64,000 nt of DNA, taken from positions 64,509,952 to 64,573,951 of the forward strand of contig CM055905.1 in the NCBI GenBank assembly GCA_029582155.1, given 5' to 3'. Numbering within the stretch: the first letter of the stretch is position 1; every line of letters starts with the position of its first letter. Of the stretch, positions 8,201-51,400 are shown one piece after another. The DNA comes from Panopea generosa (lineage: Eukaryota; Mollusca; Bivalvia; Adapedonta; Hiatellidae). A program made the position numbers and the translations under genes. The notes below the pieces were generated by a model. It was not told where the DNA came from, did no database searches, and was given only the letters and a program-made list of their open reading frames with translations.

Positions 8201-9329
8201 CCTAGACAAAATGGTGCAGAAAGCTAAAGATGAAGTAGACGCCATGCACAACATATTGGAAAGTAAAATAAACACAGAATTTCAAACACTGCGAGAAACT
8301 AGAGCAACTCTAGATATTAGCCTAAAACACTTTGAAAACCTTGAGGGAGATAACGAAGTGAACTTGTTTCTAAACGTAAGAAAGGGAAAACAAAACAACC
8401 GTGAAGGAACCATGTTACTGGAAAAGCTTAAACAAACTCCAATGAATGAAACAATGAACTTTTCTTTCAACTCGGATATCACTGATTATTTTGTTCAATT
8501 GAAGAGTATTGGAGAGGTAAAGTTAAACATTAAACCAATCAGCTCCGCGGCTTTACACAGGGATATCACTCTCGGTGATGAGTACAATTGTAATATGAAG
8601 GGTTCATGTCTGCTCGATGACGGAACATTAATGATAACACACCATACAAAAAAGATTTTAGCAAGGCTGGATACAAGCTACAATTTTGTGGACAAGTGTA
8701 CATTATCTGCTGAGCTATTGGGCGTGTGCAGAACAAGTCCAACAGAAGTAGCAGTAGCACTGTATGACAACAAGAAGATACAGTTTGTATCTACATCCGG
8801 CAGACTGTCAGTCTCCAGGTCATTCCAGGTGAAGGAGAAACCTATGTACCTGGCCGCCAGTAATGGAGAGTTGTTTGTTACCAGTGACTCCCCACCACAA
8901 GTAGGAGTATACAATATGACCGGCAGCCACTTGAGAACCATCAGAAATTATCCATCAGGACAGGGAATATTCGACACGCCAAGAGGGATTGTTCTGAGCA
9001 ATGATGGAACCAAAGTACACGTGATGGATGGGACAAAAGGCGTGATTACCATGACAAGACAGGGACATGTACAACACACCTTCACTGACCCACAACTCAA
9101 GTTTCCCTGGGATGCCTGTGTCCTGGAGAATGACAACCTACTGGTATGTGGGTTCAGTTCCTACAACATAATACAGGTGGATAACCAGGGGAGGAAGATA
9201 AATGTTCTACTGACAGGGACAGATCGGATATGCTGGCCAAAGTCACTCACGTATGACGTCATCAACTCCAGACTGATTGTTACCATGGAATTTAACAAAT
9301 ATATAAAAGTGTTCACCTTGTCAAGATAG
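5283..9329 (+). CDS. TRIM-like protein: B-box 1, B-box 2, coiled coil, NHL-type propeller
   Basis: This gene has two exons, 5283-5623 and 7991-9329, joined by a 2.4-kb intron (donor CAG|GTAAGT, acceptor TATTACAG|G) with the frame kept across the junction; the product is about 559 aa. B-box 1 is formed by C21, C24, C37, C40, C45, C48, H52 and H61. B-box 2 is formed by C85, H88, C97, H100, C105, C108 and H113. A charged helical stretch (about 135-230) suits a coiled coil. The C-terminal half (about 300-559) has the repeated GxxVLSNDGT/VIDxxxG pattern of NHL-type propellers. No RING finger lies upstream, so E3 ligase activity cannot be assumed; such proteins usually act as scaffolds or RNA/protein binders. 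The start was chosen at ATGGCGACT, which has a good context; an in-frame ATG-less extension to 5217 is unlikely. A TATATAAA string directly abuts the ATG, which is odd. Family assignment is firm but orthology is not. Confidence 0.85.
5660..7510. repeat. AT-rich ~33-bp minisatellite filling the TRIM-like intron
   Basis: Diverged units built on GACCATTTATAGACCAGT and ATATATTACATATA recur across most of the intron (5624-7990). The array is interrupted by a SINE at 7002-7230 and resumes after it, so the SINE inserted into an existing array. No coding potential. Confidence 0.85.
7002..7230 (+). mobile_element. tRNA-derived SINE, family A, inserted in the intronic array
   Basis: A tRNA(Ser/Leu)-like head carries an A-box-like TGGCCGAGTGG and a B-box-like GGTTTGAGTTTC. 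It is followed by the body GTGAGAAAGTTTGCCAGTTAC, GGTGGTTCTACTCAG and CCACCAGTAAAACTCGATATG, ending in an A-rich tail. Other copies are at 53155-53370 (+), 56380-56600 (-) and 61580-61800 (-). Confidence 0.85.
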
Positions 9330-9367
9330 ACATTGGAAACGTTAATAGTGTGACGATAAAAGTAAGT

Positions 9368-9992
9368 ATCTGCTCGGCCATGGGGCATGTGTAGAACAAG
9401 TCCAACAGAAGTAGCAGTAGCACTGTATAGAGACCAGAAGATACAGTTTGTATCTACATCCAGCAGACTGTCAGTCTCCAGGTCATTCCAGGTGAAGGAG
9501 AAACCTATGTACCTGGCCGCCAGTAATGGAGAGTTGTTTGTCACCGGTGGCGATCCACCACAAGTAGGAGTATACAACATGACTGGCAGCCACTTGAGAA
9601 CCATCAGAAATTATCCATCAGGACAGGGAATATTCGACACGCCAAGAGGGATTGTTCTGAGCAATGATGGAACCAAAGTACACGTGATAGATGGGACAAA
9701 AGGCGTGATTACCATGACAAGACAGGGACATGTACAACACACCTTCACTGACCCGCAGCTCAAGTCTCCCTGGGGAGCGTGTGTCCTGGAGAATGACAAC
9801 TTACTGGTATGTGGGTTCAATTCCCACAGCATTATACAGGTGGATAACCAGGGGAGGAAGATAAATGTTCTACTGACAGGGACAGATGGGATACGCTGGC
9901 CACTGTCACTCACGTATGACGTCATCAACTCCAGACTGATAGTTACCATGGAATTTAAAGAGTATATAAAAGTGTTCACCTTGTCAAGATAG
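9368..9992 (+). pseudogene. tandem partial copy 2 of the TRIM-like propeller segment
   Basis: This is a close duplicate of the last ~208 codons of the upstream gene, offset by about 664 bp and joined directly to a copy of the short 3' UTR. The frame is open for 201 aa from an ATG at 9387 that replaces a valine codon in the parent. It has no B-boxes, no coiled coil and no obvious splice acceptor. By eye it is over 90% identical in protein to copy 1. Differences cluster in short segments (YDNKK to YRDQK, TSDSPP to TGGDPP, SSYN to NSHS). It is probably a non-autonomous fragment, although use as an alternative 3' exon is not excluded. Confidence 0.8.
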
Positions 9993-10030
9993 ACATTGGA
10001 AACGTTAATAGTGTGACGATAAATGTAAGT

Positions 10031-10688
10031 ATCTGCTCGGCCATGGGGCATGTGTAGAACAAGTCCAACAGAAGTAGCAGTAGCACTGTATAGAGACACG
10101 AAGATACAGTTTGTATCTACATCCGGCAGACTGTCAGTCTCCAGGTCATTCCAGGTGAAGAAGAAACCTAACTACCTGGCCGCCAGTAATGGAGAGTTGT
10201 TTGTCACCGGTGACGATGCACAACAAGTAGGAGTATACAACATGAACGGCAGCCACTTGAGAACCATCAGTAAGGATCCAACAGGACAGAGAATATTCGA
10301 TACCCCACGAGGAATAGTTCTGAGCAATGATGGGACCAAATTAAACGTGATAGATTGGGCAGAAGGAGTGATTACCATGACAAGACAGGGACAAGTACAA
10401 CACACCTTCACTGACCCACAGCTCAAGTCTCCCTGGGGAGCCTGTGTCCTGGAGAATGACGACTTACTGGTGTGTGGGCACGATTCCAACAACATAATAC
10501 AGGTGGATAATCAGGGGAGGAAGATAAATGTTCTACTGACAGGGACAGATGGGATACGCTGGCCACAGTCACTCACGTATGACGTCATCAACTCCAGACT
10601 GATTGTTACCGGGGAAAGTTTAAAAGCATTTATCTCTAGAATTGAGAGTGATACAAATTATATAAAAATGTTCAGCTTGTTAAGATAG
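10031..10688 (+). pseudogene. tandem partial copy 3 of the TRIM-like propeller segment
   Basis: This third copy of the same segment is open for 212 aa from an ATG at 10050. It is more diverged than copy 2 (for example KKKPN, TGDDAQQ and HDSNN at the variable positions). It also carries an 11-codon insertion near the C-terminus (between VTGES and NYIKMF) that keeps the frame. The inter-copy sequence again contains TAATAGTGTGACGATAAA followed by GTAAGTATCTGCTCGG, so copies 2 and 3 arose from one kind of unit. No upstream exon of its own is seen. Confidence 0.8.
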
Positions 10689-11290
10689 AAATTGAAAACA
10701 TTGATAGTGTGACGATAAAATTAGGTAAAAAAGCAACACCTTTTTACACGGACAATATCGAATAGTTCAGAATACCAGCAAGTAAATGTACATGTACAAT
10801 TAACAGTTAACTCACTGTGCATCTCAGATACATGTTCGTGGTATTCATATATTGTGTTCTGCGAGTATGACACGGCAATACAGAGCGCTTCAACGAAACT
10901 CTTTCATTGAAACTTAAAGTCAAATATAACATAACGTCTGGTGTCTATATCATAAATCATTGTTTATATTATATAATCAGAGCATATAGGTTTTATAACA
11001 AATATAGTGTGTATACTTTCAAATGTTAATATAAAAAAGCAAATTTCAAAAATATATGAATGCCTTAAAAAGTAAATATAACACTCAAAAAATAAATTTT
11101 ATTTGACGACACAACAATTTGTTACAATAGTTTTCTATAACTATGTGAAATTTGTTAAATCCCAGCTTTCTCTGAGTATACAACACATTATGCGATTTAT
11201 TGTTCGTTTACAGAGGCCAAACTTCTATTCCTGTTTTATAGAGCAGGTTTGGAGTATGTGTCTTGTTACATGATGATTAATTATATAACA
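10689..11290. other. 3' flank of the TRIM-like cluster
   Basis: It begins with the same 3' UTR-like block (GATAGTGTGACGATAAA) that follows each copy, then becomes AT-rich unique DNA. An AATAAA at 11091-11096 is the first reasonable poly(A) signal, but its use is unproven. Confidence 0.4.
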
Positions 11291-28439: not shown

Positions 28440-29385
28440 TTTAAATATGCCCTCTTAACAAATGTAGATCTTAAATTAGTCTATAAATTAACCCCTACCA
28501 TTACCTAAACAATTGTAAAGCTTGATTTAGTCAATGAATTAACCCTTACCTGTTGTTACCTAAACAACTGTTAAGCTTGAATTAGTCTATAAATTAACCA
28601 CTACCATTTCCTTAACAACTGTAAAGCTTGAATTAGTTTATAAATTAACCCCTACCTACCATTACCTAAACAACTGTAAAGCTTGAATTAGTGTATGAAT
28701 TAACCCTTACATACAGTTACCTAAACAGCTGTAGAGCTTGAAATAATCTATAAATTAACCCCTACCATTACCTAAACAATTGTAAAGCTTGAGTTAGTCA
28801 ATGAATTAACCCCTACCTACTGTTACCTAAACAACTGTAAAGCTTGGTTTAGTCTATAAATTAACCACTACCATTACCTAAACAACTGTAAAGCTTGATT
28901 TAGTCAATGAATTAACCCCTACCTACTGTTACCTAAACAACAGTAAAGCTTGGTTTAGTCTATAAATTAACCCCTACCATTACCTAAACAATTGTAAAGC
29001 TTGAATTCACCTATAAATTAACTCCTACCATTACCTAAACAATTGTAAAGCTTGATTTAGTCAATGAATTAACCCTTACCTACTGTTACCTAAACAACTG
29101 TTAAGCTTGAATTATTCTATAAATTAACCCCTACCTACCATTACCTAAACAACTGTAAAGCTTGAATTAGTCTATAAATTAACCCCTACCTACCATTACC
29201 TAAGCAACTGTAAAGCTTGAAATAGTCTATGAATTAACCCCTACCTACCATTACCTAAACAACTGTACAGCTTGAATTAGTCAATAAATTAACCCCTACC
29301 TACAATTACCTAAACAACTGTAAAGCTTGAATTAGTCTATAAATTAACCCCCTACCTACCATTACCTAAATATCTGCCAGGGTTT
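28440..29385 (-). repeat. 52-56-bp minisatellite overlapping the QSOX stop codon
   Basis: About 16-17 units. On the minus strand each unit reads CAGTTGTTTAGGTAATGG, then GTAGGTAGGGGTTAATTTAT and a segment with CAAGCTTTA. The QSOX coding end CAGATATTTAGGTAATGG aligns with the unit at 16 of 18 bases, including the TAA stop. The array therefore starts within the last codons and forms the proximal 3' UTR. Confidence 0.9.
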
Positions 29386-32300
29386 ATATTTCCGTCTGAC
29401 AATAAAATGATAATATAAAATTAAAATGATCACAGTGCACAACACATAAAACACCACACACATCCCCATGTCAAAGTTACTAAAACCCCACCCATATATC
29501 TGTCTTGACCCAATCTTCGCTTCTAAATTCAACTCTTCCCTTTCATTCCAAACCAACTGCTTGTCTCTGACAGTCAAGGCATTCTTGGCTCTCTCTTTTC
29601 TCTTTTTATGTTTTTCGACTTTTTGTAAACGTAAATTATGAATTGTTTCCAGATCCTTCTTCCTTTGTTGTAATTCCCACCAATCCAGTGGTTTGTTTTT
29701 CGTCATTTCAGAATTATTATTATTGGCATCAAATTCTCTCTCACCGCTATCCTCCGTTGGTTTTATGATTCCAGACTTGCCGTAAAACTGCAGCAGAAAC
29801 TCAAACACTTTATCTTCGTTAAACATGTCTCCACGGTAACAATCTGAACAAAGAGATTTGGATGGGAACTGAATCTTCGGATATTTTGGGTCTTCTGATT
29901 GGTCCCCATCTAGTCTGGCATTGGCTTTATTATGGGCTCTCCACAGCCACAAGATTGCACTGCGTGGGTTGTGGTCTGCAGACGTAATTGAGGAAGCCAT
30001 TTTAAGAAAATGGTTCACACATGTACTGCATCCGAAGAAATGTTGCATATAGCTTTGAATTGTTGATAAAACATCCAATGGTAAGTCTCTGGGATCTGGA
30101 AAATTGAAAAGTACTTTGAATCTAATTTAACGACAGCCAAAATTGTCTTAAGTAGGCAGGAAAGGGGCAAAAATGACCTTTTAAAACAGGTTAATGCTTA
30201 ATACAGGTTAATTTACTCTTAGAGCATAAAAATAGAAAATATGGTTGCTTAAGACACAGCTTTCACAGGTTTGACTGTACATTCTGTTTTAATTTCTGCA
30301 CTGGGTAATATAAGATTAAATGGTTCCTATGGAGTGACACATTCAAAGCACCATGCTAACATCTGCCCACATATTAAGTTTCATGATTACAGATACAATA
30401 AGCATAATTTAACCATCACTGTTGTTCTATATATCTAGTGCAATGTTGTTGATGGGCTTCAGACATTTTTTTCCAGCAGAATCTGTTTAGTTGTGCGTAA
30501 TATATTTATTTATACTTACTCTCTCTTCCATTTTGATATGCACCCACAGTCAGTGTATGAAATAAGGTCCACATTCCACATGGGTAACCACGGTAACGTA
30601 ACTGACTTCCTTCACACCCCACCCACACTATACGGTCTGGTAGGTAGACACTAACAGTCTGAAATATATATAGCATTATTTAAAGCCATCAAAGAATTGT
30701 TCTATTTCAGACATATGAAAAACATATTCAAATTATAGTGCTGTGGTCATTTTTTAAAAAGCTTCTGTAGAAAGTGTCCACCTCTATTAAGCAGTCACTT
30801 GTTGTAAGCAGCCAAGAAAAGTGGCATTTTAAGACAGGCTGTTGTTTAATACAGGTTACTTAGCTCTGAAAGCATATCAATGGGAAATAACAAATGTGGC
30901 TGCTTAAGACAAGTGGCTGCTTAATAGAGGTGGCCGCTTATACAGGTCTCACCGTACCTAGCAAGCTAAAGTCAATACACGCTGAGATGTACGTCATATA
31001 TACAGCATTACTGACATTACTTTAAGAAACAATTCACAAACGAGCGAAAAACATAATAAAATGATTAAAAAATACCACAAAAGAAACACAGCAGCTAAAC
31101 CATCAAAGCGTCAAATTGCTGATGTGAAGACAGCAAAGACTGAAGATATATGGCCTTTACTTATCAAACTATTTCTGAAATAAGTGCATAATGGCGGACA
31201 TTTCCGAGGTAGTGTCCCGAGGTAGCATTCCGAGGTAGTGTCCCGAGGTAGCATTCCGAGGTAGTGTTCCTAACTTTCTGACAGACCGTTTAAAATTAAG
31301 ACACTTTGTCCTCCTTGGATCCCTCATTTGCTGACATCTAAGCAAAAGACTAAAAGTTTGAAACTCTGAAAAATATCATGATTTTGATTTAAAACTTCAT
31401 CTATCACCAAGTCATTTTTACATTACCACAGTGTCACCTTGACAGTGGTGTACCATATTGATCGCAAAAATGTAGGATCTACAACCTGAGTGGCAGGTCA
31501 AAAAGGTGTAATTATGTGGGTCCCTTTGAAAATAAATTAAGCCATGAATGCAAAAATGAAAACAGAGGAAGTAGTTCACTCAACGGCAATTGTAACATGG
31601 AAAAACAGCAATTTTAGAGCAATATCTCTGTAGAGAAATTTACTCAGCATCACAAACTTTGCTTCACTCACATTTAGCTTGTGATAATCATGCATGCAAA
31701 GTTTAAATTCAATCGTTTGAAAATCTGAAAGAAATTCTCCACAAGAATGATAAAATATGGTAAATGCAACAATTTTACTAAGCGCAAGGGCAATAACTCT
31801 ACATGGAAAAATTGTTGGAGGAAGTGACAGAAGTATCGTATACATTGTGTTAGCGCACTGCAAGTCAATATCTCATTCATCACTTAGAGCAAGACATTTA
31901 AACAGACAAGCAGTTATGTTTGCGTTCAAATATATACAACTTCATGTAGATTCGCATTCTCCTAAAAAAATATTATACTGCAATGAAATTCATTAAAATC
32001 GATTTGCACCCAATGGAATCTATGAAATGTAAAATAATATAAGGTTATTTTACAGTGTTTTGTACAATATTGTAATATATTGTACTGAAAGGTATTGTGC
32101 TGAAAATATATGTTTTTTACAACAATACGTATGAGTACAATATAGTCTCATATTGTACAAAACACTGTAAAATGACCTTTTTATTCTATAACTCTACCTG
32201 AAAGAAATTTATCAAGAGTAGAGAAAAATCAAAATCCTTTCAAATAAAGTTCAAAGCGGCAAATGAGGAAAGTATTCGGATTTACTCATCGTCATGCCGA

Positions 32301-35300
32301 ACATTCTGTCAGTTGTTTATTTTTACTGTTGAAATTTCTACTAAATTCATTGCCTTTTTTTTAGTCACCATCTTGAATTTGAAACTGTGCAATATAAAAT
32401 TTCTTAGATCCAATAACCTTCTACATATTGTACGTTCACATGGTAACATCTGGGGTAGTTGATTGGCTATACACGTACAGATATGGAATAAAAGCCTTTT
32501 GACAGCAGAAATAGGAACAGATCTATTGAATTCTGAGATCCTGAACAACAAAATTTGGTCGAAAACCGAGTTTAGAAGCCCTGAGACTAATATAAAAAAT
32601 ATTCCATGGGCTTATTACTCTTTCCTGTTTAACCAGTACTTAAGCATATTCATCTCGCCAAGAAGCTGATAACTTTCCCACTTGTATCAGCAGTGAGAGA
32701 CTAATAACAACAAGATGCAATGTCCTATATCAATCATCAGGGTGACTGTAGCTGGCTGGGGATTCATGACACATGACTTGATAATCGGACACGCTACAGA
32801 CTGAGCTATCTGGGCCTGGCTCATTTCAAAGTTCAAGGCCATCAACACCTGTTACCTGCATTTCATCTATAGAATTAAGCCACTGGTCCCCTGTAAGTTC
32901 CGTATCCACATCTTTCAGCCAAACTACAACTTTCTCCAGGAAACTTTTAACAGCTTCTCTTCCAGGAAAATACTGTAAAAACATAAACAAAATGGATTTA
33001 AAGAAACAAACAGTAATAATGAAATCAATACTATGAAATAGGTAAAACCTATCAGGAAAGATGCTTTACTAACAAGCCAGTGGAATATTGCATGCAATAC
33101 ACTACCGATTTACAGATAGGACATAATTAGTGTTTGAATGACTTGTTTCTATAGATGGTGACATAAGAATTGCAGTGCCATGCCATGAGAAAATGTGGTT
33201 GTTGCCATAGCAACCACAATTTTTTTGTTAGCTGAAAAAAATGATTAAAGGATCTACACGATATCCTTATTTTTCTCTATTCTTTTGCAAAGTTTCTAAA
33301 TAGTAGCTTGGATACTTTTTTTGTTATCCAAAGAGTGGTATCTGTAATTTTGTTGTCATAGCAATCCTGATTTTTGCCCATCTGAAAAATTAAAATAACT
33401 GGCATCATCCCCCTATTGCTTTCTATCCACATGCAAAGTTTCACAATGCTAGCTTTGATGCTTTTTTAGTCATATGTTCTGATGATGGAGAGAGTTTTGT
33501 TGCCATAGCAAGCATTATTTTTATCCCACTGAAAGAATAAAATGACCTGCATTATCTCCTTATTGCCCTCTATCCACATTTAATAGTAATCTTTCCTGAC
33601 GGACGGACACCTGACAGATGCTGGGCAGATAGAGGGTGGACCTAATGATCCCCTCCGGTGAAACTGGTGTGGGGACTAATAATCACATTCTGTCATCGGG
33701 TACCTCCAAAACAGATAGATTTAAAATGAGATTACTAACGTGTTTTTTTGTGGTATCTTAGCATTTTTGTAATCATTTTAATACACAGCAGTTTACTAGG
33801 TTTTTGTTTTCATTCCATTAACTCTTTACTCTATAGATACATGTTTTCCGGCACCAATCACAGAAGGCCTATGAAAACAGTGAAGGAAGAGTTCAGATTG
33901 CTCGTAACGAGCAATCTGAACACTTCCTGCACTGTTTTCCACTCTGTCTGTTAATATAAACATAATTCACCCAATAATTCAAAAGTCTTCTATATTAGAG
34001 GTGTCCAAAGGCGTCTATATTAGAGGTGTCCAAAGGCGTCTATATTAGAGGTGTCCAAAGGCGTCTATATTAGAGGTGTCCAAAGGCGTCTATATTAGAG
34101 GTATCCAAAGGCGTCTTTATTGGAGGTGTCCAATGGGGTCTATATTAGAGGTGTCCAAAGGCATCTATATTACAGGTGTTCAAAGGCGTCTATATGAAGT
34201 AAAGTGTTAAGACAGGTTTGACTGTATATTACCTACCTTTGCCAAAAGACTGACAAAATGTTTCAGGGCAGAGAGTTTCTCTCCCTCTATGTTCCTATGT
34301 ATCGCTATTTCTTGTCTGAATGAATAATGTAAGGTTGACTCCAGATCCTGCATGTACACACCGGGTCTGAAATAGAAACGTCAGACCTACATATACACAC
34401 CGGGTCTGAAATTAAAACGTCAGACCTACATATACACACCGGGTCTGAAATAGAAAAATCAGACCTATAAATACACACCGGGTCTGAAATTGAAATGTCA
34501 CACCTACATATACACACCGGGTCTGAAATAGAAACATCAGACCTACATATACACACCGGGTCTGAAATTGAAATGTCACACCTACATATACACAACGGGT
34601 CTGAAATAGAAATGTCAAACCTACATATACACGGGGTCTGAAATTGATATGTCACACATACATATACACACCTGGTCTGAAATAGAAATGTCAGACCTAC
34701 ATATACACCGGGTCTGAAATAGAAACGTCAGACCTACATATACACACCAGGTCTGAAAATGAAACGTCAGACCTACATATACATACCCGGTCTGAAATAG
34801 AAACGTCAGACCAATATATACACATCGGGTCTGAAATTGAAATGTCACACCTACATTTATGCACCGGGTCTGAAATAGAAACGTCAGACCTACATATACA
34901 CAATGGGTCTGAAACAGAAACGTCAGACCTACATATACACACCGGGTCTGAAATTGAAAAGTCAGACCTACATATACACACCGGGTCTGAAATAGAAACG
35001 TCAGACCTATATATACACACCAGGTCTGAAATTGAAATGTCACACCTACATATACACACTGGGTCTGAAATTGAAACTTCAGACCTACATATACACAGAG
35101 GGTCTGAAATAGAAACATCAGACCTACATATACACACCGGGTCTGAAATAGAAACGTCAGACCTACATATACATACCCGGTCTGAAATAGAAACGTCAGA
35201 CCAATATATACACACCGGGTCTGAAATTGAAATGTCACACCTACATATACGCACCGGGTCTGAAATAGAAACGTCAGACCTACATATACACAATGGGTCT

Positions 35301-38300
35301 GAAACAGAAACGTCAGACCTACAGTTACTATCACTTTCTCCCCCTGATGTGGACACACATGGTTTGTGCTGCACCAATACAATAGTGAATGCTGGTATAT
35401 GGTACATACAACTGATATATGTTACAACTTTTGTATTATGGGTCTGAAATAAAGGCGTTAACCAGACATATTTATAAATAAGTTTCGGCTAGTCTTACCC
35501 ATCATTGCTGCCCTGGTCTCACAAATATGTTTAATTGAATATTTGGTTTCATTTTTATGCTATCAAGGGCTTACAAACGACCCAACCACTCTTTAGTTAG
35601 CGTCATTTTATGCCTTCAAAGGCTAACAGACAATAAGTTAACTTAACTTAACTTTCCTGGGATCCTGGAAGGTTAAACAGTACTCAAGCACACCTGTCTC
35701 CGCAGGAAACTGATAACTTCATCACATGAATCATAGATGAAAGACAAATGTCAATGAGATGCAATTTCCTTTATCAATCATCACAGAGACTATGGTGGCG
35801 CGAAGGATTCAAACTCATGACCCCTGGATTGATAGTCAGATGTGCTACTGACAGAGTTAACCAGGTCTGGCTCCTAATAACTAGGTATCATTCCTTCTGA
35901 ATAATATTAGGTGTTACATAAGTGTGTCACAAAAGTCTGAACTTACTTTGTATCCTGGCTATCAGCTAATGGTTCTTGTTCCTTTTCATCTGCTATTTCC
36001 ATTTCTATCTTGTTACCATGGTTACCCGCTGGTTTCTTGATTCCCAACTGCTCTGGTGTCAGAAGGTCTTTCAGGGATGCCACCATAGCCTCGCGGGTAC
36101 TGTTCTTCCTGGGAACAATATCAACAGGTAAAACCTGTGTTAGTGGCCACCTCTATTAAGCAACCACTAGTCTAAACAGCCACATTTTCTATTTAACACT
36201 TTTATAAAAAAAAATTTAATAAACCTGCCTTGAGAGGTCATTTTTGGTCTTTTTCTCATGAGTGGAAGCTTGAGACAGGTTTAATTGTAGCCACACAGCA
36301 TTTTATTTTACATATTTCAAAAACCTTAAAACAATCACTGCCCTAAAAAAATATTCTTTACAAATAATTAAAGCAGGGAGGTAGTGAAGTGGATAAAGTG
36401 CTGGCTGCTCACATAAGAGGTTGAGAGTTTGATCCTGAGCTCAAGCAGATGCCTCTCAAAAACAGGTGTGATGACTTTTTACTTATTGTCAAAAAATGTT
36501 GACACAATTTCCAGAAGTTACAGAGTAGTACAAGCTTCCAGTAGTGATTCCAGGTTATCATCAGGGATAATCTACATGTACGGAAGATTAGGGATAATCT
36601 ATATGTACGGAAGATTCTCATTATTGCGAACATTATAACATCACAGAACAACTCACTTATACAATATCAAAAAATCTTACTTGAAAACACGGGTAAAAGT
36701 TCCATCTCTGTTTATCAGATACAACGACGGAAATGTAGTGATACCAAACTTGCGCACTGAATCTCTCAGCATGCGACGTACCAGCAGCGCTTTGTACTGG
36801 AATGTGTCCAAAATCACCTGCGAAGTAAAAATGTGAGATATGAATCACTGATCTACAGTACGCGCCACCCATAACCTTCATTCTACTCTTTTCACAGATT
36901 TTTGCTTTTGATTACATATTAAGCATTGTTTTTATGCCATCGAGGGCCAACAGATGATCAGTAAACCTAACCGCTGTTTCCTTGGATCCTTAAAGGTTAA
37001 CCAGTACTCGAGCACGCATAACTTAGTTACTGTAGTATGTTTGATGACTAGGAAGGCTTGTGTAAAGTTTCAAGTCAAAACATGCATTCTTTACTGAGAT
37101 ATGGACTTGATGGCACTTGCACGCAAAACTTTAACCAGAATTTCTAAGTCAAACAAGGGCAATAATTTGCATTATATTCATGCAAGAGTTATCTAACTTA
37201 GTTATTGTAGTAGGGTTGATGACTAGGAAGGCTTGTGTAAAGTTTCAAGGTAATATATGCAATAGTTACTGGAATAGGGACTTGCATGCAAAACTTTAAC
37301 CAAGGTGACACACCGACACCGACGTCTGGGTGAGTAGAATAGCTCTCTTTATTTTCCGAATAGTCAAGCTAATAACAAAAAATAAGAAAAAACTCCACAC
37401 CAACCTCACCCTTTTACAGAAAAATTTGGATGATAATCTAGCAATTAAGTTATAATAGCCTAAACAGATTTGCCTTATACCGAAGACACTTAGGAACCAT
37501 AATGACAAATACCCAATAACAACTATTGATTCCGCCATCTAAAGTATGATAAAACTCCATGCCAATAAACCTTTATAGAGTGTGAAGGTAAACAGCTGGG
37601 ACAGTCACAAAACGCTGTCAACATGTTATTTTACATTCAGATCGACTATAATATCTACAGCTGGCAACACCATCTGTCTTTATTCTAAATGTAAATAATG
37701 TTTATAATATACACTGGTGAATTTAGAGGGGGGAGAGAGGGGGCCACCCCCGCTGTCTGCGATTACCTAAAAATTTAAAAGCTATTGATTTTGAATATTT
37801 AGCCTCAGTTTTATGCCATCAAAGGATAACAGGTGTGCAGTAAACAACTCTTTCCTGGGATTTAGGAAGGCTGACCAATTTCCACAAGTCATTGATAACA
37901 TGAATCTGCGTTGAGAGATGTTGTTGTTGTTGTTGTATGGTGTATAGCATCGCTTTCAACAATTTTTCAGTCATATCGCGACGGTATCTACTTGAGACAG
38001 TATTCTGAGCGCTGTCACACTGGAGTATCATGGGGCAGATACATGGTATGATACCCCACCCAGTCACATTATACCAACACTGGGCCAACCAGACCTAGAA
38101 CTCTCCTCTAAATGCCGAGTGTCAAGCAAGGAAGCTTCTAGTACCATTTAAACTAAAAGTTTTGGTATGACGCGGCCGGGGATTGAATCCACGACTTTAC
38201 GTATACTAGGACACTCTCTGGAATTCTGCATTGGACCTCCATGCCCATCCTGATGGAAAACCCTGAATTTACATCTGCATAGATGGCTAGGAAACATACA

Positions 38301-41300
38301 TATCTCTACTACATTTGTATATGTTGATAAAATAGCATGTGAAAAATTAATATTTTGTCAAATATATCATTCAAATTTCACAAGCAACTGATTTCTGATA
38401 GAAATGTAAGCTGTATGTTACCTTAGATGTTCAATAATGTATGGAATACAAAATATGCTCTTAAATTAAAATCATTGCAGTTTGAAGTAAAATTAAGGCC
38501 ATTATAAATTAATTGCTAGATTATAATCCAAATTTTTCTTCAAAAATGGGGAGGATTTTATTTTTTATTTTCATTTTTAAATTTTTTGATGTTTTTTCAA
38601 TAAAAAAATAAAAATTTAAAAAAAAAATTAAAAAAAGAAAATAAAAAGGTTTGGGGCAGCATGAAAATGAGGGGGCTGGTGGGGATGATATTATAGCAAT
38701 TAATCTATTATGGCCTGAAGTACTTATTTTCATATTTTTAGTTGCAGTATACAATTTTTTTAATTATAAGTTCTCAAATAATTTTGAACACAATTCGCTG
38801 GGAATAGTCTCATTTTATAGAGAATTTCATTATGCAAAGAAAGAATTTTGATTTGTATTTCTGAAATGTATGGAAGTCAGGATATTTGAAAATGAAATTT
38901 TGGGAGATTTTACATAAATACATGAGTGTTCATAACATCTCAAACAGTTGTTTTTCCTTCTTTAGGCCATTATAAATTAATTATAAGTCAAACTTTTCTT
39001 AAAAACGGGGAGGGCGGGACGATTTTATTTATTTTTACTTTTTTTTTTATCTTTTTTTAACATATTTTTTAATGATAATAAAAAGGGTTGGGACAGCATG
39101 AAAAAAAAGGGGGCGGGCAGGGATGATAATCTAGCAATTAAGTTATTATGTCCCTATATATATAAGACCTTGATATATGACTACAATGTAATACATCATT
39201 TCATCACTTAATTTACCAACATCTATCTAAACAACACTTAGTCATAATGAATATAATAAAAAATTATATAAAGCAACTTTTTGTTACGTTTCATTTCACA
39301 TAGTGATAAATTATTCATACAAAATAATTTATATCAAGCCAGGGGCAATTATACATATTATGTATTTACATTATTAAGTTTGTTCAATTACTGTATCGAG
39401 AACAATTGAAACATTACATAAAACTTTGTGATCATGTTTATAGAATGTAAACAATAGTACATCTTTTTTTTTAACACCACTTCCAACACATTTCAGATTA
39501 TATATGGCATATCCAGTTTCATTGGTGAAGGATTGAATGATTGATTGAATATCTAGTGTCATTTTTATGCCATTGAAAGCTAACAGATGATCAGTTCACC
39601 TAACCACTGTTTCCTGGGATCCTCAATGGTAAAACAGTACTCTCCGCAAGTAACTGATAACTTTCCAACTTGAATAAGAGGTGAGAGATGAATGCTAATG
39701 AGACACTATGTTGTATATCAATCATCACGGAGATTGTTGCTGGGCAAGGTTTCAAACTCATGACCTCTGGATTGACAGTCAGACTTATTACCGGCTTATT
39801 ATGATACTCGAACCTGTATTAAGAATCCATACTGAGGTACTGATGCAGTCATTCAGAAGGAATGGTTGTAAAATACAGATAAAAAATGTTCTTTATTGCT
39901 TTTATATGCTAGTTGTATTACATACATATAAAATATCAATAAATGCTTCACTCTAGTATTATAAGTCAGAGCTTTTTTAACCTTATTAAATAGAGGCCAA
40001 AATTTGGTGACTTCCCAATTGAGGCCAAAATAATTCTTTAAATGATAAAAAAAAAAATTATTTTTCTTACATAAGGGAAAAAACAACTGGATATGAAACA
40101 TTATTGTAATATCTGATAATTACTGGTTAGAACAGGATCTTAACAGAGTTACGCCTTATTTTCCAGTTTGCCAAAGCCTTAAAAAAATTCCTAATTTCCC
40201 TCCAAAGTGCTGTTTGTTTCCTAATCTCAAAGGCTTGGGCCTCTTTCCAATTATCAGAAAAAGGCTCTGTAAGTGAATTGTAAAGCAATATCGTCCCCAC
40301 CTACCTGTCGACCCACGTAGGAGTCTGCTTCCTCAAACACAAACGCCACATGTTTGTGATCATCCCGCGTCTCATCCCAGATATCGTGCATCAATCTGCA
40401 ATAAATTATACATTAGAGTTGTATTATATAATTTATGCTACATGGTCATTGTCAACATGCGGAGCATGTGGTCCAGTGGTAAAGCACCGAACATAGGATC
40501 AGAGGGTCAGTGCCAAAGTCTGCATGATGATTTGAAAGAATGCTTAGGTTAAGTGATCATCTGTTAGACACCCCTCCCCGATGGCATAAAATCATGCTAA
40601 ATAATAAAACAAATAAACAAACTTACTTACATTATGGGAGATAACTTTGGCCAGGATTTCGGAGGCTCGAACGAAGATGTATTGGAGACAAAATCCACAA
40701 TCTTTTTGAGAAGACTGTCGGTGTTCTGGTCTTGATACACCTCCCCTGGATCAGTATCTTTTGTATGTGGACGGAATAGCTGAATAAAAAGAATATTGTT
40801 GAATACCCCTCATAAATATTACTGCTGAATTCCCTATATAAATATTAAATATTATTGCTGAATACCCCTCATGAATACTATTGTTGTTGAATACACTCCC
40901 ATCAATATTATTGTTGAATTCCCCCCATAAATATTATTGCTGAATAGCCATCAAGAATATTACTGTTGAATACCCCTCATAAATATAATTGCTGAATAGC
41001 CCTCATTAATATTATTGCTGAATACCTCTCATAAATATAATTGTTGAATACCCCTCATAAATATTACCGTTGATTAGCACTCATAAATATTATTGTTGAA
41101 TGCCCCTCACAAATATTATTGTTGATTACCCATTTTAAATATTATTCAGAGTTATTTTCCATGAAATTCGGAAGAAGCCAAATTTAGCTTTCGTAATTGG
41201 GAAAAAAACAGTGTGCTGAAGAGGAAATTTTTTTAATTTAGGCATTTTTTACCTCTACTCGAAAAAAACCCATAATTTTTTAGTTGGAAATTAATCAAAT

Positions 41301-44300
41301 TTCAGCCCCTGTTTAATAAGGTAAAAAAGATCAGTACAGGTACTTGTTGAAAACCCCTCATACAAGATTTTGTGAGTTGACAATTTATAAAGATAACATT
41401 ATAAGATATTAATTTTAGACGTGCACACACAAACTGCCAATATTGATTGTACGCAAAGTAAATAAAATCCTGTACGAAATATTCCGACTGACTCGCTGTA
41501 AAGAGAAAATGCTATACATTTTTTTATTCAGCCCGAACTCATTCAGATTAATGATTAAACCAGTGCATTTAGAAACAATACACTATTTGTGCTTGGGCAA
41601 TACTTTTATTTATTAAATAAGCAAAATAAGTCAATTCTTTATTTAACAGGTATCCAATTACATGCCATTGTTTAACTGGGGTAATGAATATGTAATAATG
41701 TATCATGAATGGTAAATAGACTCTAAGCCTACTATAATACAGATCTGACTATATCATTACATGTATGTTGAACAAATACAAACGATAAACACGACACACA
41801 TTCAAACAAATGGATATACATACATTTAAACACAAAATGTCTTATGTATACCTATATGATTTCATTCCTGTTAAAGGGGTAAAAAACGCTATAAATGTCT
41901 TCAAAAATAGAATTTGTTATAAAATGGATAAAAAGCATTCTATTATAATATTATATATAGATAAAATCAGAATGATTTTGTTTATCAAATCCACCCAGAT
42001 GTGACAAAATCGACATTACAAACAGAGTGGTAAACTTGAAGCCCAATCGTCATTCTAAAAATAGACAGCACTTAAATACTGCTTGATGACCTTCGCATCG
42101 TCATACAAACTCTTTCTAAGATACAACAATTTTTACCAAGTGTAAACCTGTTTAACTGATCAAACTGAAATCACATTTAATACGTCGCCAAATATGTTGA
42201 AATTTTAAGCAAGAAATTTATATAGTCTAATCTAGGCGCGTAGCTCTAGTTAGGAAATCCCTTTACAATATATTATTTTGGCATGTTTAAATATATATCC
42301 TTTCGACAATACAGAATCAGTGTGTATATAATTTTTATAGACATGCTTTATTTGAAAAAAAAAAGTTATAAGCCAACTTTAAACTTTAAAAATTCCTGGT
42401 ACTCCCTTTAAATATGTTTTGTATTGTCCTCATTAATCAAAGTAGAATTATAAGCAATTTTGGTCATCGTGATCTTACTGCCAACAAAATATGCCCAGCA
42501 AAACTTTTGTATTTTCAAATTAATGTGTATAAAATTACTATGTCCTTAACTGTTGATCATGTAGGGAAATACTGTTTGGTTGAATATTTAGCAATATTTT
42601 TTTTTACCATTGCGGGCTAACAGACGACCAATTAACCTAACCACTCTTTCCTGGGATTCTGAAAGTTTAACCAGTACTTGAGCACACCCATCTCTGCAAG
42701 TAACTGATAACTTCTCACTTGAATAAGAGGTGCAAGACAAATGACAATGAGAGGCAATGTCATATATATATTGATCATCATGGAGACTGTCGTCGGGCGG
42801 CAACTCAAACTCACGGCCCCTATATTGATAGCTTAGGGCCCGGGAAAAATCATTTTCATCATTATTGAAGGTACCCGCTTCCATTTCCCAAACCCAAAAA
42901 ATAGACTAGGATCTATGGAATCTGAAGACAACACCTCAGAGACGTCATTTTATATCTAGTTAACATGTAATATTAACAATGGCAGTCAGCTACGTGTATA
43001 ACGTACTTCATTATAAATCTTGATACAAATTCTGCATCTTAGTGCTGATGGACTGTCTCGAAAAGACACAAAAATAAAAAACAGGACATGAATTATGATG
43101 CAAAATGTCATAAAATTTCACAGCAATGATGGAAGATTTGTTCAGGAATGTTCAGAGCTTATTAATCTGACTGATCAATGTCTACGATCTGTGATTGACA
43201 TTAGATCAGATTTCATTTTGGAAATAGTTCCTTCAAGCTATGTTGGGATACAGACTTTTTTCATCCATTTTCACTCTGATATCCCTTGCATATGTTAGTT
43301 GGGATCATGTTATATTTGGTAAAACAAGGTTATGGCCTATTTTTTTTAGTTTTAAACTTTTTAATTTACTTCAGTTGTAAAACAAGTTATTACAACTTAA
43401 ACAAATCACGCTCAAAGTCTTCCTGGGAAGAACCAGTACCAAGCGTACAGGTATGCGGAAAAGGTGTCTTGCTCAAAGACACCAAATGGTATGATACCCC
43501 ACCCACTCACATTATATCGACACCGGGCCGACCAGACCTACAATTACCTTCTAAAAGTGGGGCGGTAGTCTAATGGATAGAGTGTTGGCCACTCACGCCA
43601 GAGGTTGAGGGTTCGATCCCCAGCTCGTCCCCGATGCCTCTCATAAAACAACACTCAGTACTGGTTCTACCCAGGAAGCGGACTCGAGAGCAGTTCATTT
43701 AAGCCCTGAGCTTTCATCGCAATCAAGCTCAAAAATAATTAGTATAAACTAAATGCTGTAAGAGCTAAGCAAGGAAGCTTCTAGTACCACTTCAATGTAT
43801 GACCTGGCCAGAGATCATCTGCATGCGAGGTGGACATTCTACCACTAGACCAAACTGTGGTCTGAACTGACCTTGAAAGTTGGAAAGGCATTGGCTTCAT
43901 ATTTCCTGCACAGCTGCGTGTTGTCCTGGTTGGCACAGTCGACGGCCGCTATACCTATCACAGGTTGCCAGGCTGCAGATAAAACAGTCATTATGGTTAC
44001 ATTCTTTAAGTATTAAAAGTAATAGGATTAAAACATTTAATGTCCTGCAATGATTCATTAATGTTTTTTGTTTGTGTCTTTAAAAAAAATCAGTTTTCAG
44101 TGCTTTTATACCTTATTAAACAGAGGCCGACATTCGGAGGCTTCCCAATTCAAAAATCATATTTCCCCCCACTCCCCACCCCCACCGCAATTGAGCCAAA
44201 AATAAATTTCCCAAAATGAAAAAAAATATATCATCTCTTAATAAAACAACTGGATACAAAGTATTACAGTAATATCTGATAATTATTGGTTAGAACAATG

Positions 44301-45360
44301 TTACTTTATTTTTCAGTTTGCTAAAGCCTAAAAAGAAATTCACAATTTCGTCTCAATCACACCTCTTCCCAATTTCCAGAAAAACGGCTCTGGTTTTATA
44401 AAAGTAGACTTCTATAATTAATTTTTAAAATTCTTCCTCTACATATGTATATAGCCTGTTAAATGTCACTCTACTGCAAGAAAGATAAATGAAACTGTAA
44501 TAGGAAAAAGGGTGCCATAAGTTCTGAGTAAATAAACTGTTTTAACTGATGTTGTTGATCATCTTATCGTGAAAAAAATCTTGATTCTTTGATTGGACTA
44601 CCCAGTAGTAGTAAATTTTGTACAATTTGTTCATACAAGGTTGGAGGACGAGTGTAAAACAAAAGTTTTTAGTTTAGTTTATACTAATTTCATTTAGCTT
44701 GACTGTGATGAAAGCTCAGAGCTTATAGAAACCGCTCTCAAGTCCGCTTCCTGGAAAGAACTGTGAGTGCTGTTAAATGATAGGCATCGGGTCGAGCTAG
44801 AAATTAAACCCGCAACCTCTGTCATTAGCAGCCAACACTCTATCCACTCATCTGACTACTGCCCAGCTTTGAGTGCATCATTCTGATTGGTCACTTACTC
44901 AGTAGACATAGTAGTCAAAATCTGGAAGACTAAAATATGTAATGTTAATTCTGTCATGGGAAATTTTGACTACCGGTAATACAGCATTTTTGAGCCACAG
45001 GGATTATGATTAACCCCATACAGTCTATAGATCAGTCAGATAGCAGACCGGCAAACAGGAGTTATGGAATATCCAGCCCCGTCACTAATCTGGCCCCTGA
45101 ATGAAACGGCCCCATTTAGCATGGAAAATCCGGCCCCACATTAATTTTGAAAATAATATCATTGAAATATTGGAAAGTTATTAGTTAATTTGAAACGCAC
45201 ATATTAGTTACTTTGGGATTGTTATTGAAAACTTACTCTTAATGGGAATTATATAGTGCATATAATAATAAATGATTGTTAATGAAAAGTAACTTTTTGG
45301 GGGAATGAAACTTATGATTTATAATTCAATTTAATAATTAATTAATTTAATCATAAACAC

Positions 45361-45419
<59 letters not shown>

Positions 45420-48400
45420 GTCTTATATTGGTTAGAAGTACTTTTTTGTCATTAATCATTATAATTTGAAGAAGACAAGAAAAAATGGACCGCATGTTTT
45501 CATGTATTTGTACTACGATATTATGCAGTTAATTTTAGTGAAAAGCAACGTCAACATATTAACGTGGCCAAGTATTCCTGATATCAAGGATTTTGCATGC
45601 ACTCAAAACAATTGTATTGTCATTGATTGTAAATTATGCCCCCACTGTTTCTTGTTGATATCTATTGTGTGTGTCACCTTCATTTAGATTGGTTTGTAAA
45701 ATGGCACAAATGTATGCAAACTTTTAAATGCTTCTCTATTTTTGAAAGAGATTTTGTAAATGGTTAAAGTGCATTCTATTTCATATATTTGTAGTAATCT
45801 GAGACATAATTGTTAATCGTATTTTAATTTCGTCTTTCTGTCAATATGTTGAGAGATAATGCAAGTTTGCTTGCTCTCTATCTCCATATTTTAAGTTCTG
45901 GGTAATTTGCATTCCAACATTGGCATGTATCTCATTAACATCGTATTCTTTTCTGTAAATGGTATAGATGTAATAACGAAACCCATTGTACATGTCTGAT
46001 CAACATTCATATTATTCACACAAACAAGACCTTAAGGCTTTTAAGCACTGTACCATATTGAATACAGGTACAAATATGAACTTATCTGATTTAGGCAAGT
46101 TTAAATTGTATCAAGTAGGGTAGGGCAGTTTGCTCCAATACCAGACATGTTTATGTATGGGGTATGTTATAAGCTGTCACCAAAATATTAGTGAATTCAT
46201 ATCCCCGCTCAAAAGGTCCATGGACAAAACTGACATTACATAAATTTGTTTTATCTACTTGAGCAATGCATTATTATGCCTAAAAACTAAAAAGTAACAT
46301 CCTATTGTAATGTGATTGTTTTTCTTTTATGCAAGGGCTGACATAATGGGTAGGTTAAACAATAAGTGAAGGAGCAGATGAACACGATGGAATTTTGACA
46401 GTGTCGTGGTGGTGGTAAGAGATGTTACGGTGGACAATTTTAATATACCGGTAGATATTCACTTGTATTGAACAAAAGAGCAAAGTGTATGTCATCACTA
46501 AATAAAGGAATTGAAACACAAAGACCACTGGCCCATTGTTCAGGACACCTGCTGTATGACCTCTACCATAGAGTTTGTTGGTACTACATAAATAATACAT
46601 GCATCTGAGATATTCCGTCATGAGGAAAATTGGCTGTCAGGTACACATTCAAGTTTGTCATGTTGACAGTGGCTCTTTTCAAACGAGTCATCGAAAACAT
46701 GCACGACATTGGACATTCTGAGGCCTAGTTCTTCTAAAATATTGCGGTTTAACTAACGTTAATAATATATACAATATCGGGTATTTTACATATCGTGTAG
46801 TGGCTTAACTCTCTGTTCAAAGTCAGTTCAAAGTTCAGCCTAATAACCCTAATAGGGGATTTATCACCGGCGCAAAGCGCCGGTGAAAATCACCGGAACG
46901 GCATTGTACACGCGTCCGTTAAATTACAAGTGATACTTATTTATTTTTTGTATTTCCGGTTTATGCACTGGTGTGTCAAGGACTGTAACCCGTACAACTT
47001 AAATAGTTGGTTCCCACGATTGGTGAAAAATGGTGCATGACGGCAACCAAAAAATTAACTGGAGGAGTAAGCTCCCTTGACGAAAAAAGTGCACGTTTGG
47101 CTAAACCAAAAATAACTTACTCTTTCCATACTTCAAAAAGAAGTTCGATAAGTATATGAAGAAATGTTACGGTAATACGCATTATTACGTTACATACACG
47201 ATGTGTTTATGATTTAACAATATATATATATACAATTCATGTATACTTATTGAATGAAATTGATAAATAACACTTTCGATTCTGCCATCCGAACAATATG
47301 ACTACAGCTGAGGGACACCAGCAGCCAACATATTGTTGTCTAGAATCTTAGTACAATTATACGTAGATAAAGGCTGATACACTTGTTATTTTGCCCGCTA
47401 CGATAGGTGTACTATTTAATCAGTTATTGTAGATGCACGGTCTTGGAAGTATTGCCACTTACAAATAATGCTATGTAATGCTTCGTGGACAAGTAGTTTT
47501 CGTTACAGATCGTGACACCGTGACAGCTGTGTTGACATATCTGCATCAGACGTAATTAACACTGACAAAAATGATGTCTTCAGTCAGTCAGTCTATGTTT
47601 GTTTACCCTCGCAGCTTTGCTCTAGACATTTTGTCGTCTACATATACAGTGCTAATTTTGAAAGTATTAGAACCAATACTGTATTTATAACATGACTTGC
47701 CTTGTTTCAAATCATTTTCTCTGCTAAAATTGATATGGTAGTCTAGTTGTTAGCAGGGGTATTTTTTTATTTGTTAGTATGGGGTAAATCGTGTCGCTGT
47801 TGTTAGGATACATTATTGCTTCAGGATCCAGGGGTCTCCAGTTTCATTCCCGGTTGGGTTTCATCACAGTGGCTTATTCGGGCAAGTAAATGAAAGTGTT
47901 GTGAATGTACATAGGTCACTTACAACATGTTAAGCTAGCTATTATAGTGTGGTAGTTGAAGTGCACTGACTGTATTGAAAGTTGAGCAATGAAGTACAGG
48001 GTTAGTACTCGGATGGGTGACCGCTGTCACTTTAATGGCGACGAGGATTAACTTTCAAACCTGTGTCTGCACAAATCTCTCTTTCCTTCAGATGGAACTG
48101 GATATAGCCAGGAACTGCGGGAAGCCACAGGCTGTGCAGTTGGGGGCTAAGCCCTAAAGGTTAAAGAGGGGAGGAGTGTAGTGAATGTATATAGGTCACT
48201 TACAACAGCCTTGCTGTTAAGCTAGCATGGTTGAAGTGCACTGACTGTAAGTTGAAAGTTAAGCAACGAAGTACAGTGTTAGTACTCGGATGGGTGACTG
48301 CTGTCACTTTAAAACCATGCAATCCTTTGAAGGGGATTTAAAGCAGTTGGTCCCGTGTCCAAGGAGAGTCATTCCCGTGATGTTGATCAGTGGAATAAGC

Positions 48401-51400
48401 TTCCATCGCATTCATGAAGAGTTTGACATCCCTACCTGATGGCGAAGGGGATAATCCAGTAAAGAAATTAAAGTGCCTGTAAAATACTTGTAAACATGTG
48501 CACTTTGTGCTTGCACATTATCCTCTGTTGAGGGTGTTGCAGTGTAAGTAAGATAGAAAGGAAGAATTATAAAGGTTTACAATGCGCCTGGAGATGGCAA
48601 CTGTTTTTCCCTACTGCCTGATGGGGCTGTGCATTGGCGTTTTTTCATTGGCGTTGCATATCGCGATACTTCATTTTCAGAATGAATGTATCAGATTATT
48701 GTGCCAGCTAGTGATGCACCGGTTGACAATATAGACTTGGACTATTATGCCGCATGGTGATACATCGGTTGACAACATAATATCAGACTATTGTGCCAGC
48801 TAGTGATGCACCGGTTGACAACATAGTATCAAACTTATGCCAGTTAGTGAAGCACCGGTTGACAACATAGTATCAGACTATTATGCCACCAAGTGTTGCA
48901 TCAGTTGACAACATAGTATCAGACTATTGTACCAGCTAGTGATGCACTGGTTGACAACATAGTATCAGACTATTGCGACAGCTGGTGATACATCGTTTGG
49001 CAACATAGTTTCAGACTATTGTGCCAGCTAGTGATGCATTGGTTGACAATATAGTATCAGACTTTTGTGACAGCTAGTGAGTGGTGCACAGGTTGACAAC
49101 ATGGTAGCAGCCTATTGCAACAGCTAGTGATGCACTGGTTGACAACATAGTGGCAGACTATTGTGACAGCTAGTGATGCACCAGTTGACAACATAGTAAC
49201 AGACTAGACGACAGGGAAAACATATCTCTATAGAAATGTTTGTTTTTATCTGTATGAAAATACCGAGGCAACTAATAGCATCTTGCTTCTTAAGTACATT
49301 TTACAGTGATCTTTTTTCAATCATTGTTTCCGAAATGAAAGTGAACAGCATGTTATTTCTCATAGCTACAACAGTAGAACATATGAAGTGATCACCTCTA
49401 TTTAGCAACCACACATTTCCTTACTTTTTTTTTATATACATATACTCCTATGTTACTATAATTTCTTTAAAATGCAGAGTAGACAGATTGGTTGGAACTG
49501 TTTAAATACTTGAAAAGCAGCATTTATATTAAACAGTTGTAATACCATGCCATTTATTTGATACTTTTGGCCGCTTAGGCTTAATTAAAATATTTTGTAG
49601 GGCTGTGTATTGCTTGAGAAATAGTGATGACCGGGCTGGGGATTGAATATACAATCTTCCACAAGCAAGGCGGATGCTTTACCCCTGGGCCACTGGTGCG
49701 GTTTTACAGGATGGAGGATTTCCAGTAAATACTTAACTAGCTCCTCTTCAGCACTGATTGTATGTTAAACCAAACACAGTACTGAACATGCATACTTCTG
49801 TGTTTGAAAATGATTTTAGTTGGTTACTTGCTGTATTGCAATACACTTGATAAATACAGTTGATTAAGGCATGTTATACACGATATGCCATATTGTGATA
49901 TAACGCAATTTCAATATATTGCTACAGTCCTACATTTCCAGTTGATCCACAACAATCCTGCTGGTTGGAAACATTTTTTACCCCACCCCTCCAATAAAAA
50001 TATTGTTGTTTATATAATATATTCTAGGTCTTTGCTTGTCCTTTCTCTGTCCATATCCTTTAAAAGGATTTTCAGATTGGCTGCATATTAAAAATGTCCC
50101 CTACCTACCTACCCACCTCCTATCTGGTATGGGTTTGAAGTGGCAAACAAACAATTTTTTAAGGGTGGTCTTAGTTATCACATATTCAGATAATATAATG
50201 TACACTTGGTTTGTGGTGTCGGGGTACATCTCTATAGTGTAAGCTAGCACACTTTTCTGTTTGAAAAGAGTTCCAGGTTCAAGTCCTGGTGGGGATCTTG
50301 ACACCCTTACGAGGTTGTACAAACTAAAAACTCCATTATATTTGTCAAAATTTAAATAAAAGTGTAATAGATGGTGTAAATACAATGCCGACCTTTCTTT
50401 ACCAAGACTGTACACATGAGTGCCCATAGCCAATTGACACAGGTAATTATTATATATACATGTATAAGACAATACAATTGGTATGGGCGTAAAGCTATAT
50501 GAATGTGGCAACTAGAACTATTACCTGAATACATATAGACAACCAGGTTGGACTCAAAACCAGTCTCAAAATGTTACAATCATGTAGTAATGAAAGTAAA
50601 TAAAACAGAAGAGATGAAGCTAACAGAGAAATACCACAAGTTCTGTTTGTTTACAATAACTGAGACATATACATTAAGTCACTGACAATATAGTTAAACA
50701 TGTGTTAGTGGTCACCTTTATTAAGAAACCATTTGTTGTAAACAGCCACAACCTAGACACCGGATTCTGTCAGCCAGAACTATAATATGAATGTAAGTGT
50801 TGTTTAAAACATTCTGTACAAATTATTTTACCAAATAATTCTTTAAGGACTGCACCCAAATATGTACATCTATGGGTTGTTGTTTTACTACCAGGTATTT
50901 AACCATGATAAGTGATATCATTTAATCAAATAGGTGATATCATTTATAGTACAAGTAATATCACTTATTCGATTTATGAATAAGTGATATCCTCTATTCA
51001 AATAAGTGATATTACCTCTTTGAATAAGTGATATCTCTTATTAATATGGTTAAATAGAAAAACAGCACCCCATATACATAAAATCTTTTTGGTGATATAT
51101 TTCAAAAAGTGGATTATTCAACCAGTTACTGGTTTATGTCACTGATTCAACCAAAGTTGAAAAATTAAGAATTACTATATACTACTTAAAAAGACTGTTA
51201 CACTGATATATACTTAATGAAACACATAAAAAATATTTGGTGGCAATTTATTCCCTAAACAAAAATAGATTTGACACAAAAGTAGCACCTCTGCACAAGT
51301 AAGTCCATTTGTATCCCGCTATATACCTTTGGTAACTGAGGTTACTTGTTATATGTCTTTGGTATCCTAGAAAAAACATTTATGCTAAATAATTTTTCAC

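Follow-up and report, generated by a model that had tools for sequence, protein, structure and literature searches.

How a correct acceptor is found when an intron ends in a long row of near-identical ones is the question raised by a 39-bp minisatellite that runs directly into exon 7 of a QSOX gene of Panopea generosa. The gene lies in a stretch of 64,000 nt (C12:64509952-64573951, G+C content 35%) of a 1.474-Gb genome, and this whole stretch is referred to as the window. By its sequence features, the array is an acceptor-side case of an already known repeat type, the mirages of amphioxus. The interpretation we favor, with a probability of about 0.75, is that this mirage-type minisatellite derives from a duplicated boundary between QSOX intron 6 and exon 7, and that its upstream units are predicted to be spliced out and mostly silent. 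Our analysis indicates that the array is most likely removed with the intron, with at most minor leakage; a regulatory role, in which the upstream acceptors act as decoys through nonsense-mediated decay, is possible but improbable.

The minus-strand gene is QSOX, as proposed in a first-pass annotation made from the DNA letters. Ten coding exons were defined, all introns are GT-AG, and the frame is open over 673 residues. The Thioredoxin, QSOX_Trx1, FAD_SOX, and Evr1_Alr families of Pfam all exceed the cut-off in the product, and its closest solved structures in a PDB search are sulfhydryl oxidase 1 chains (E 9e-110). The same annotation had placed about 25 acceptor copies before exon 7, and Tandem Repeats Finder (TRF) indeed gives a period of 39 and 25.3 copies at 34342-35323. 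The elements concerned are as follows.

29362..52529, minus strand: QSOX coding region from ATG to stop, 10 coding exons, 673-aa product
35947..36108, minus strand: QSOX exon 6, ending in phase 2 (two bases into a codon), with the donor GT next
34342..35323, minus strand: 39-bp minisatellite, 25.3 copies (TRF, 86% matches), comprising 24 tandem acceptor units and the authentic boundary
34237..34366, minus strand: QSOX exon 7, 130 nt, preceded by the authentic acceptor AG (34367-34368) and resembling the repeat unit over the first ~25 nt

The repeat unit and its match to exon 7

Upstream of the authentic acceptor at 34366, 24 TTTCAG acceptors stand in tandem (exon-side positions 35298 to 34405), each followed by ACC. 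TTTCAG is found in all 24 units, but the exact sequence TTTCTATTTCAG occurs in only 12 of them by a count on the unit listing, the remainder having TTTCAATTTCAG, TTTCTGTTTCAG, and similar sequences. In length, 22 units are 39 nt and two are 37 nt.

34677..34713, minus strand: first 37-nt unit; entry here delays the stop to codon 136
34601..34637, minus strand: second 37-nt unit; entry here delays the stop to codon 75

The consensus unit (ACCCGGTGTGTATATGTAGGTCTGACGTTTCTATTTCAG) agrees with the beginning of the exon 7 coding sequence at 22 of 25 positions, the differences being two C-to-T changes and one missing A. The copied exon start that had been noticed at first reading therefore stands, over a length of about 25 rather than about 28 bases. 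The alignment of the unit with exon 7 scores 33, while the best of 2000 shuffled exons reaches 24 and the best among the nine other QSOX exons 17. At column 17, the nonsense T is found in all 22 of the 39-nt units and C in exon 7, which indicates that the array was homogenized with the boundary copy excluded. On the intron side, seven of the 24 upstream units are identical to the true site over the last 20 nt of the intron plus the first base of the exon, so that the region expected to hold the branch point, pyrimidine tract, and AG of exon 7 consists of repeat sequence. The unit thus contains an intron–exon boundary including exon sequence. It holds the 3′ splice site of exon 7, and not the 5′ splice site of the adjoining exon that defines donor-type variable number tandem repeats (VNTRs). 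At 35443, 145 nt upstream of the array's first unit, an additional acceptor-like sequence (TTTATTTCAGACCCAT) was not counted as a copy (scores around it of 35 and 33, against up to 37 for unrelated sequence).

In a genome search with a two-unit query, at least 11 matches were obtained, all within the array, and a chance resemblance is discounted. Since the unit was found at this locus only, the array probably arose here from the intron–exon boundary. A dispersed satellite or mobile element is disfavored for the same confinement, and exact matches in viral contigs numbered zero. The stretch of exon 7 that matches the unit codes for YMxDL, which is common to three aligned sulfhydryl oxidase 1 chains reading SKIYMADLESALHY, presumably mammalian. 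This commonality indicates that the coding bases of exon 7 are older than the array, and hence that the unit is a copied intron–exon boundary.

Amphioxus mirages are minisatellite-like duplications of intron–exon boundaries, described in Adh3, the globins BflGb6 and BflGb9, and TnC; splice signals are present in many, not all, of the copies, and the mirages seem not to interfere with regular splicing, though the use of a copy as a cryptic site is considered possible by the authors (PMC3087553). Lancelet PGBD5 contains similar repeats, which have been likened to mirages (PMC3902484). The QSOX array shares with them the tandem, minisatellite-like copies across an intron–exon boundary, and by these features is a mirage in structure. 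The scale differs, with 24 extra 39-bp copies in QSOX against six and three units of 150-160 bp in BflGb6 haplotypes. In addition, every QSOX copy gives a premature stop, and the QSOX array stands in a different genome, of 1.47 Gb, in a window of 35% G+C.

On the donor side, the 25-bp VNTR in intron 18 of human ABCA7 (23.7 copies in the reference) contains the donor of exon 18; retention of one unit amounts to 2 ± 1% and is unaffected by length, while skipping of exon 19 grows with length (PMC5954066). As in QSOX, a minisatellite of similar size has a terminal copy that holds the genuine splice site of the neighboring exon, whereas the ABCA7 array opens with the two bases of the donor GT. The 38-bp minisatellite VNTR6-1 in TERT intron 6 (24-66.5 copies) also affects splicing and decay, but an expandable G-quadruplex, not copied splice sites, is invoked there (PMC11830802). 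An acceptor-side boundary minisatellite outside amphioxus was not found in the literature searched, which covered part of the field. The minisatellite of human 6-16, which we take to be IFI6, reportedly supplies multiple splice donor sites to a transcript, to judge from the title of a 1995 report by Turri; its unit, like that of QSOX, would carry a splice site, though on the donor side.

Reading frames, acceptor strength, and choice of the acceptor

Read in the frame of exon 6, all 24 upstream acceptors run into a stop before exon 7 ends, and read-through is possible from 34366 only, in agreement with the first-pass annotation. The stop that it had placed six codons in is found there (TAG) for 18 acceptors; the other six meet theirs at codon 8 (TGA, three acceptors), codon 4 (TAA, one), and codons 75 and 136 (one each). 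The stop lies within eight codons for 22 of the 24, and the two late ones belong to the acceptors that open the 37-nt units (34637 and 34713). In the alignment of the units, 21 retain the TAG columns and all 24 the TGA columns, and both stops lie in the exon 6 frame unless entry is at a 37-nt unit.

Acceptor strength was scored with a small matrix built from the other eight QSOX acceptors, which is a rough guide given the few training sites. Scores are 4.7-10.9 for the upstream units and, with leave-one-out scoring, 3.2-9.5 for the nine real QSOX acceptors; exon 7 itself has 7.1, and 11 of the 24 units score at or above it, seven of them as ties. Among 1060 other intronic AGs, 2.5% reach the exon 7 score. 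On this internal matrix, the decoy acceptors look as strong as real sites. The branch-point-like motif before exon 7 is located as follows.

34380..34384, minus strand: CTGAC, the sole branch-point-like match within 40 nt upstream of exon 7, its A lying 15 nt from the exon

This CTGAC belongs to the repeat unit, and its TGA is a stop in the decoy frame. The true site shares a branch-point-like motif 15 nt upstream with 17 of the 24 decoys; the other seven lack one, as does the real acceptor of exon 10. The sequence immediately upstream of AG therefore does not distinguish the true site, and the difference lies downstream, in the remainder of exon 7 and the donor that follows it. The near-identity of the 25 acceptors suggests that the last one is most likely selected by exon definition, since no other acceptor is directly continuous with this remainder and the donor. 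A classic experiment of Reed and Maniatis is said to have placed duplicated 3′ splice sites in competition in cis. The QSOX array would be a natural version of it, with 25 near-identical acceptors whose main difference is downstream.

Copying within the array has left a further trace.

35104..35318, minus strand: five-unit block, identical at 208 of 215 positions to 34714-34928, 390 bp away

This block, seen in a single sequence of the locus, appears to be a sign of a past block duplication by unequal exchange or slippage. From the structure of the array, the restriction of its unit to this locus, and the match to exon 7, we infer the following order of events. A piece of about 40 bp, extending from the branch-point region through the pyrimidine tract and AG to some 20 bases of coding sequence, would have been duplicated, perhaps at TCTG, which is present on both sides. 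The copied unit would then have gained two C-to-T changes, lost one base, and multiplied through slippage and unequal exchange, while the last, exon-bearing copy would have retained its own bases because they are coding. In the present gene, the true acceptor would be chosen via the downstream exon 7 and its donor, and the upstream units would be excised as intron. By analogy with ABCA7, a leakage of a few percent, chiefly to the nearest units, may yield stop-containing messages that are subject to decay, with little consequence for the protein.

Other interpretations of the array

Some observations weigh against an origin by boundary copying followed by mostly silent removal, and should be noted. 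A tree of the 24 units implies 35 changes, and the nine columns of the acceptor core TTTCAGACC contain none of them; the probability of such a run under random placement is 0.003, and column shuffles give p values of 0.032 and 0.006. The unchanged core could reflect constraint on the acceptors, which is unexpected under pure neutrality, though the observation is post hoc and a weak hint. It is weakened by similarly clustered changes in another array of the window (one of nine; p 0.016) and by a sister array beside an AAA+ exon, described below, in which two of 16 units are without AG. In addition, none of 13 AAA-domain matches in the genome has an array within 300 bp, so that arrays beside exons are uncommon in that sample, which was taken from 21 matches (eight were left out by choice, including near-duplicates and long-open-frame matches) and in which two of the 13 contain stops.

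Constraint of this kind would be expected if the array were a splicing sink, in line with the decoy idea of the first-pass annotation, in which the decoys compete with the true acceptor, each use costs a stop, and decay lowers the QSOX level according to copy number. Such a length-dependent sink would consist of near-equal acceptors, nearly all with in-frame stops, and its acceptor core would be under selection. Several results are consistent with it. The premature stop in the alternative product, a feature of regulated unproductive splicing, is predicted behind all 24 decoys; nearly half of them (11/24, seven as ties) equal or exceed the true site in score; the acceptor core is unchanged through the 35 inferred changes, with the TGA columns intact throughout; and transcription reaches the decoys before the true site. 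Moreover, a second QSOX gene was not found in a whole-genome search with a 234-residue query spanning exon 7 into exon 10 (seven candidates scored), all four matches being in this gene. If the decoys are used, the length of the array would be a rapidly mutating control of an oxidase gene with no second copy found by this search. However, 39 is a multiple of three, and a single stop in the founder unit is enough to give one in nearly all copies. The known counterparts also argue against a sink, amphioxus mirages being reported not to disturb regular splicing (PMC3087553) and single-unit retention in ABCA7 being both low and independent of length (PMC5954066). We therefore consider a sink unlikely.

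A still less probable interpretation is that not the acceptor but a hairpin is conserved, either driving instability of the repeat in DNA or hiding the acceptors in RNA.

34364..34387, minus strand: 7-bp inverted repeat GGTCTGA/TCAGACC around the authentic acceptor, intact also in 18 of the 24 decoys

With one G-T pair counted, the stem is kept in 19 of 25 acceptors, the true one included. Folding energies are −10.3 kcal/mol for the true site (z −4.0) and −9.3 kcal/mol for the commoner unit type (z −4.1), and an inverted repeat of this length is found in 1% of shuffled units. However, the stem is broken in six of 25, on the partner side only and without compensation, and the broken GGTGTGA type folds like shuffled sequence (−4.5 kcal/mol, z −0.8). 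Two of nine other units in the window carry longer inverted repeats (10 and 8 bp), so that little weight can be put on the hairpin. Local folding leaves all 25 acceptors at an unpaired probability of 0.00-0.08 and does not separate true from decoy; RNA folding was accordingly rejected as a discriminator of the true acceptor, as true and decoy sites are equally hidden.

The least probable order of events, in which an ordinary intronic minisatellite came first and its last copy later captured the exon 7 acceptor, would suit both the 20 intron bases before exon 7 that are repeat sequence (identical in seven decoys) and a 26-bp array that adjoins the exon 3 acceptor without exon resemblance, but is disfavored because the unit contains exon 7 coding bases for a motif common to QSOX1 proteins, which necessarily predate the array.

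A second acceptor array and the minisatellite background

The exact 12-mer TTTCTATTTCAG occurs at 1558 places in the genome, against 420 for its reversed sequence. Among the first 100 of these 1558 places, one cluster of eight led to a second acceptor array.

L009 4344-5194 (G000:C1), minus strand: another acceptor array, with 16 copies upstream of an AAA+ (FtsH-like) exon

Its units of 48-62 nt, mainly 48 and 59 nt, run into an exon coding ALLRPGRFDVEV..., and the consensus unit agrees with this exon at 27 of 29 positions. With TTTCAA and TATCAG variants counted as copies, AG is present in 14 of the 16 upstream copies, two read TTTCAA, and one reads TATCAG. In the frame of the adjoining exon itself, every one of the 16 runs into a stop. 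The exon matches AAA+ ATPases in PDB (AFG2 homolog B, FtsH, and others), while its 37 residues gave no match in Pfam. Frames near the array show DEID and HEAGH motifs, which we take to have the meaning they have in FtsH. The boundary-array design, as judged from these copies, is one that recurs in this genome, and QSOX would not be a lone oddity.

Two further groups, L001/L003/L008 and L002/L004/L005, have TTTCTATTTCAG followed by sequence that is similar within each group; these are possibly dispersed repeats carrying splice acceptors. Of the acceptor-like arrays flagged in C1, L028 and L013 were inspected by eye, L020 and L027 being left out, and no exon was recognized beside the two (L013 enters N). 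Three TTTCAG at a spacing of 20-50 nt occur 34,184 times in the whole genome, against 25,181 for the reversed pattern; windows overlap inside arrays and the count has no single-word baseline, and enrichment is not drawn from it.

In the window, 15.8% of the sequence consists of minisatellites with a period of at least 15 and at least three copies; in a C1 sample of 198 kb (L011-L030), which includes about 7.6 kb of N, the share is 29.7%. One piece of the C1 sample, L025 (9.9 kb), is up to 89% minisatellite. Within QSOX, enrichment of arrays at exon edges was not seen (2-3 of 19 edges, against a mean of 3.5 for rotated positions), with an array list compiled by hand from TRF output, in which the 26-bp array was extended to 40780. 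Arrays at exon edges are thus unsurprising in this gene, and it is the copied exon bases that are notable. Two other arrays touch QSOX coding sequence.

40780..41146, minus strand: 26-bp minisatellite (TRF 40846-41146; copies extend to 40780), reaching the QSOX exon 3 acceptor (40779)
28457..29370, minus strand: 55-bp minisatellite, whose first copy contains the final QSOX codons and the stop codon (TTTAGGTAATGG)

The 26-bp unit shows no resemblance to exon 3, and some of its copies read TATTCAG followed by C, resembling the real exon 3 site (TTATTCAG followed by C). In the first copy of the 55-bp array, the sequence at the QSOX stop, AG followed by GTAATG, is also readable as a splice donor. 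A 25-bp minisatellite at 33982-34195 starts 41 bp past the end of exon 7, so that this exon has arrays on both sides.

In the window as a whole, no Rfam family reached the gathering threshold. On its plus strand, 5200-10700 holds long open frames of one apparent gene, presumably of the B-box/NHL (TRIM-type) family, whose C-terminal part is near-copied twice more in tandem.

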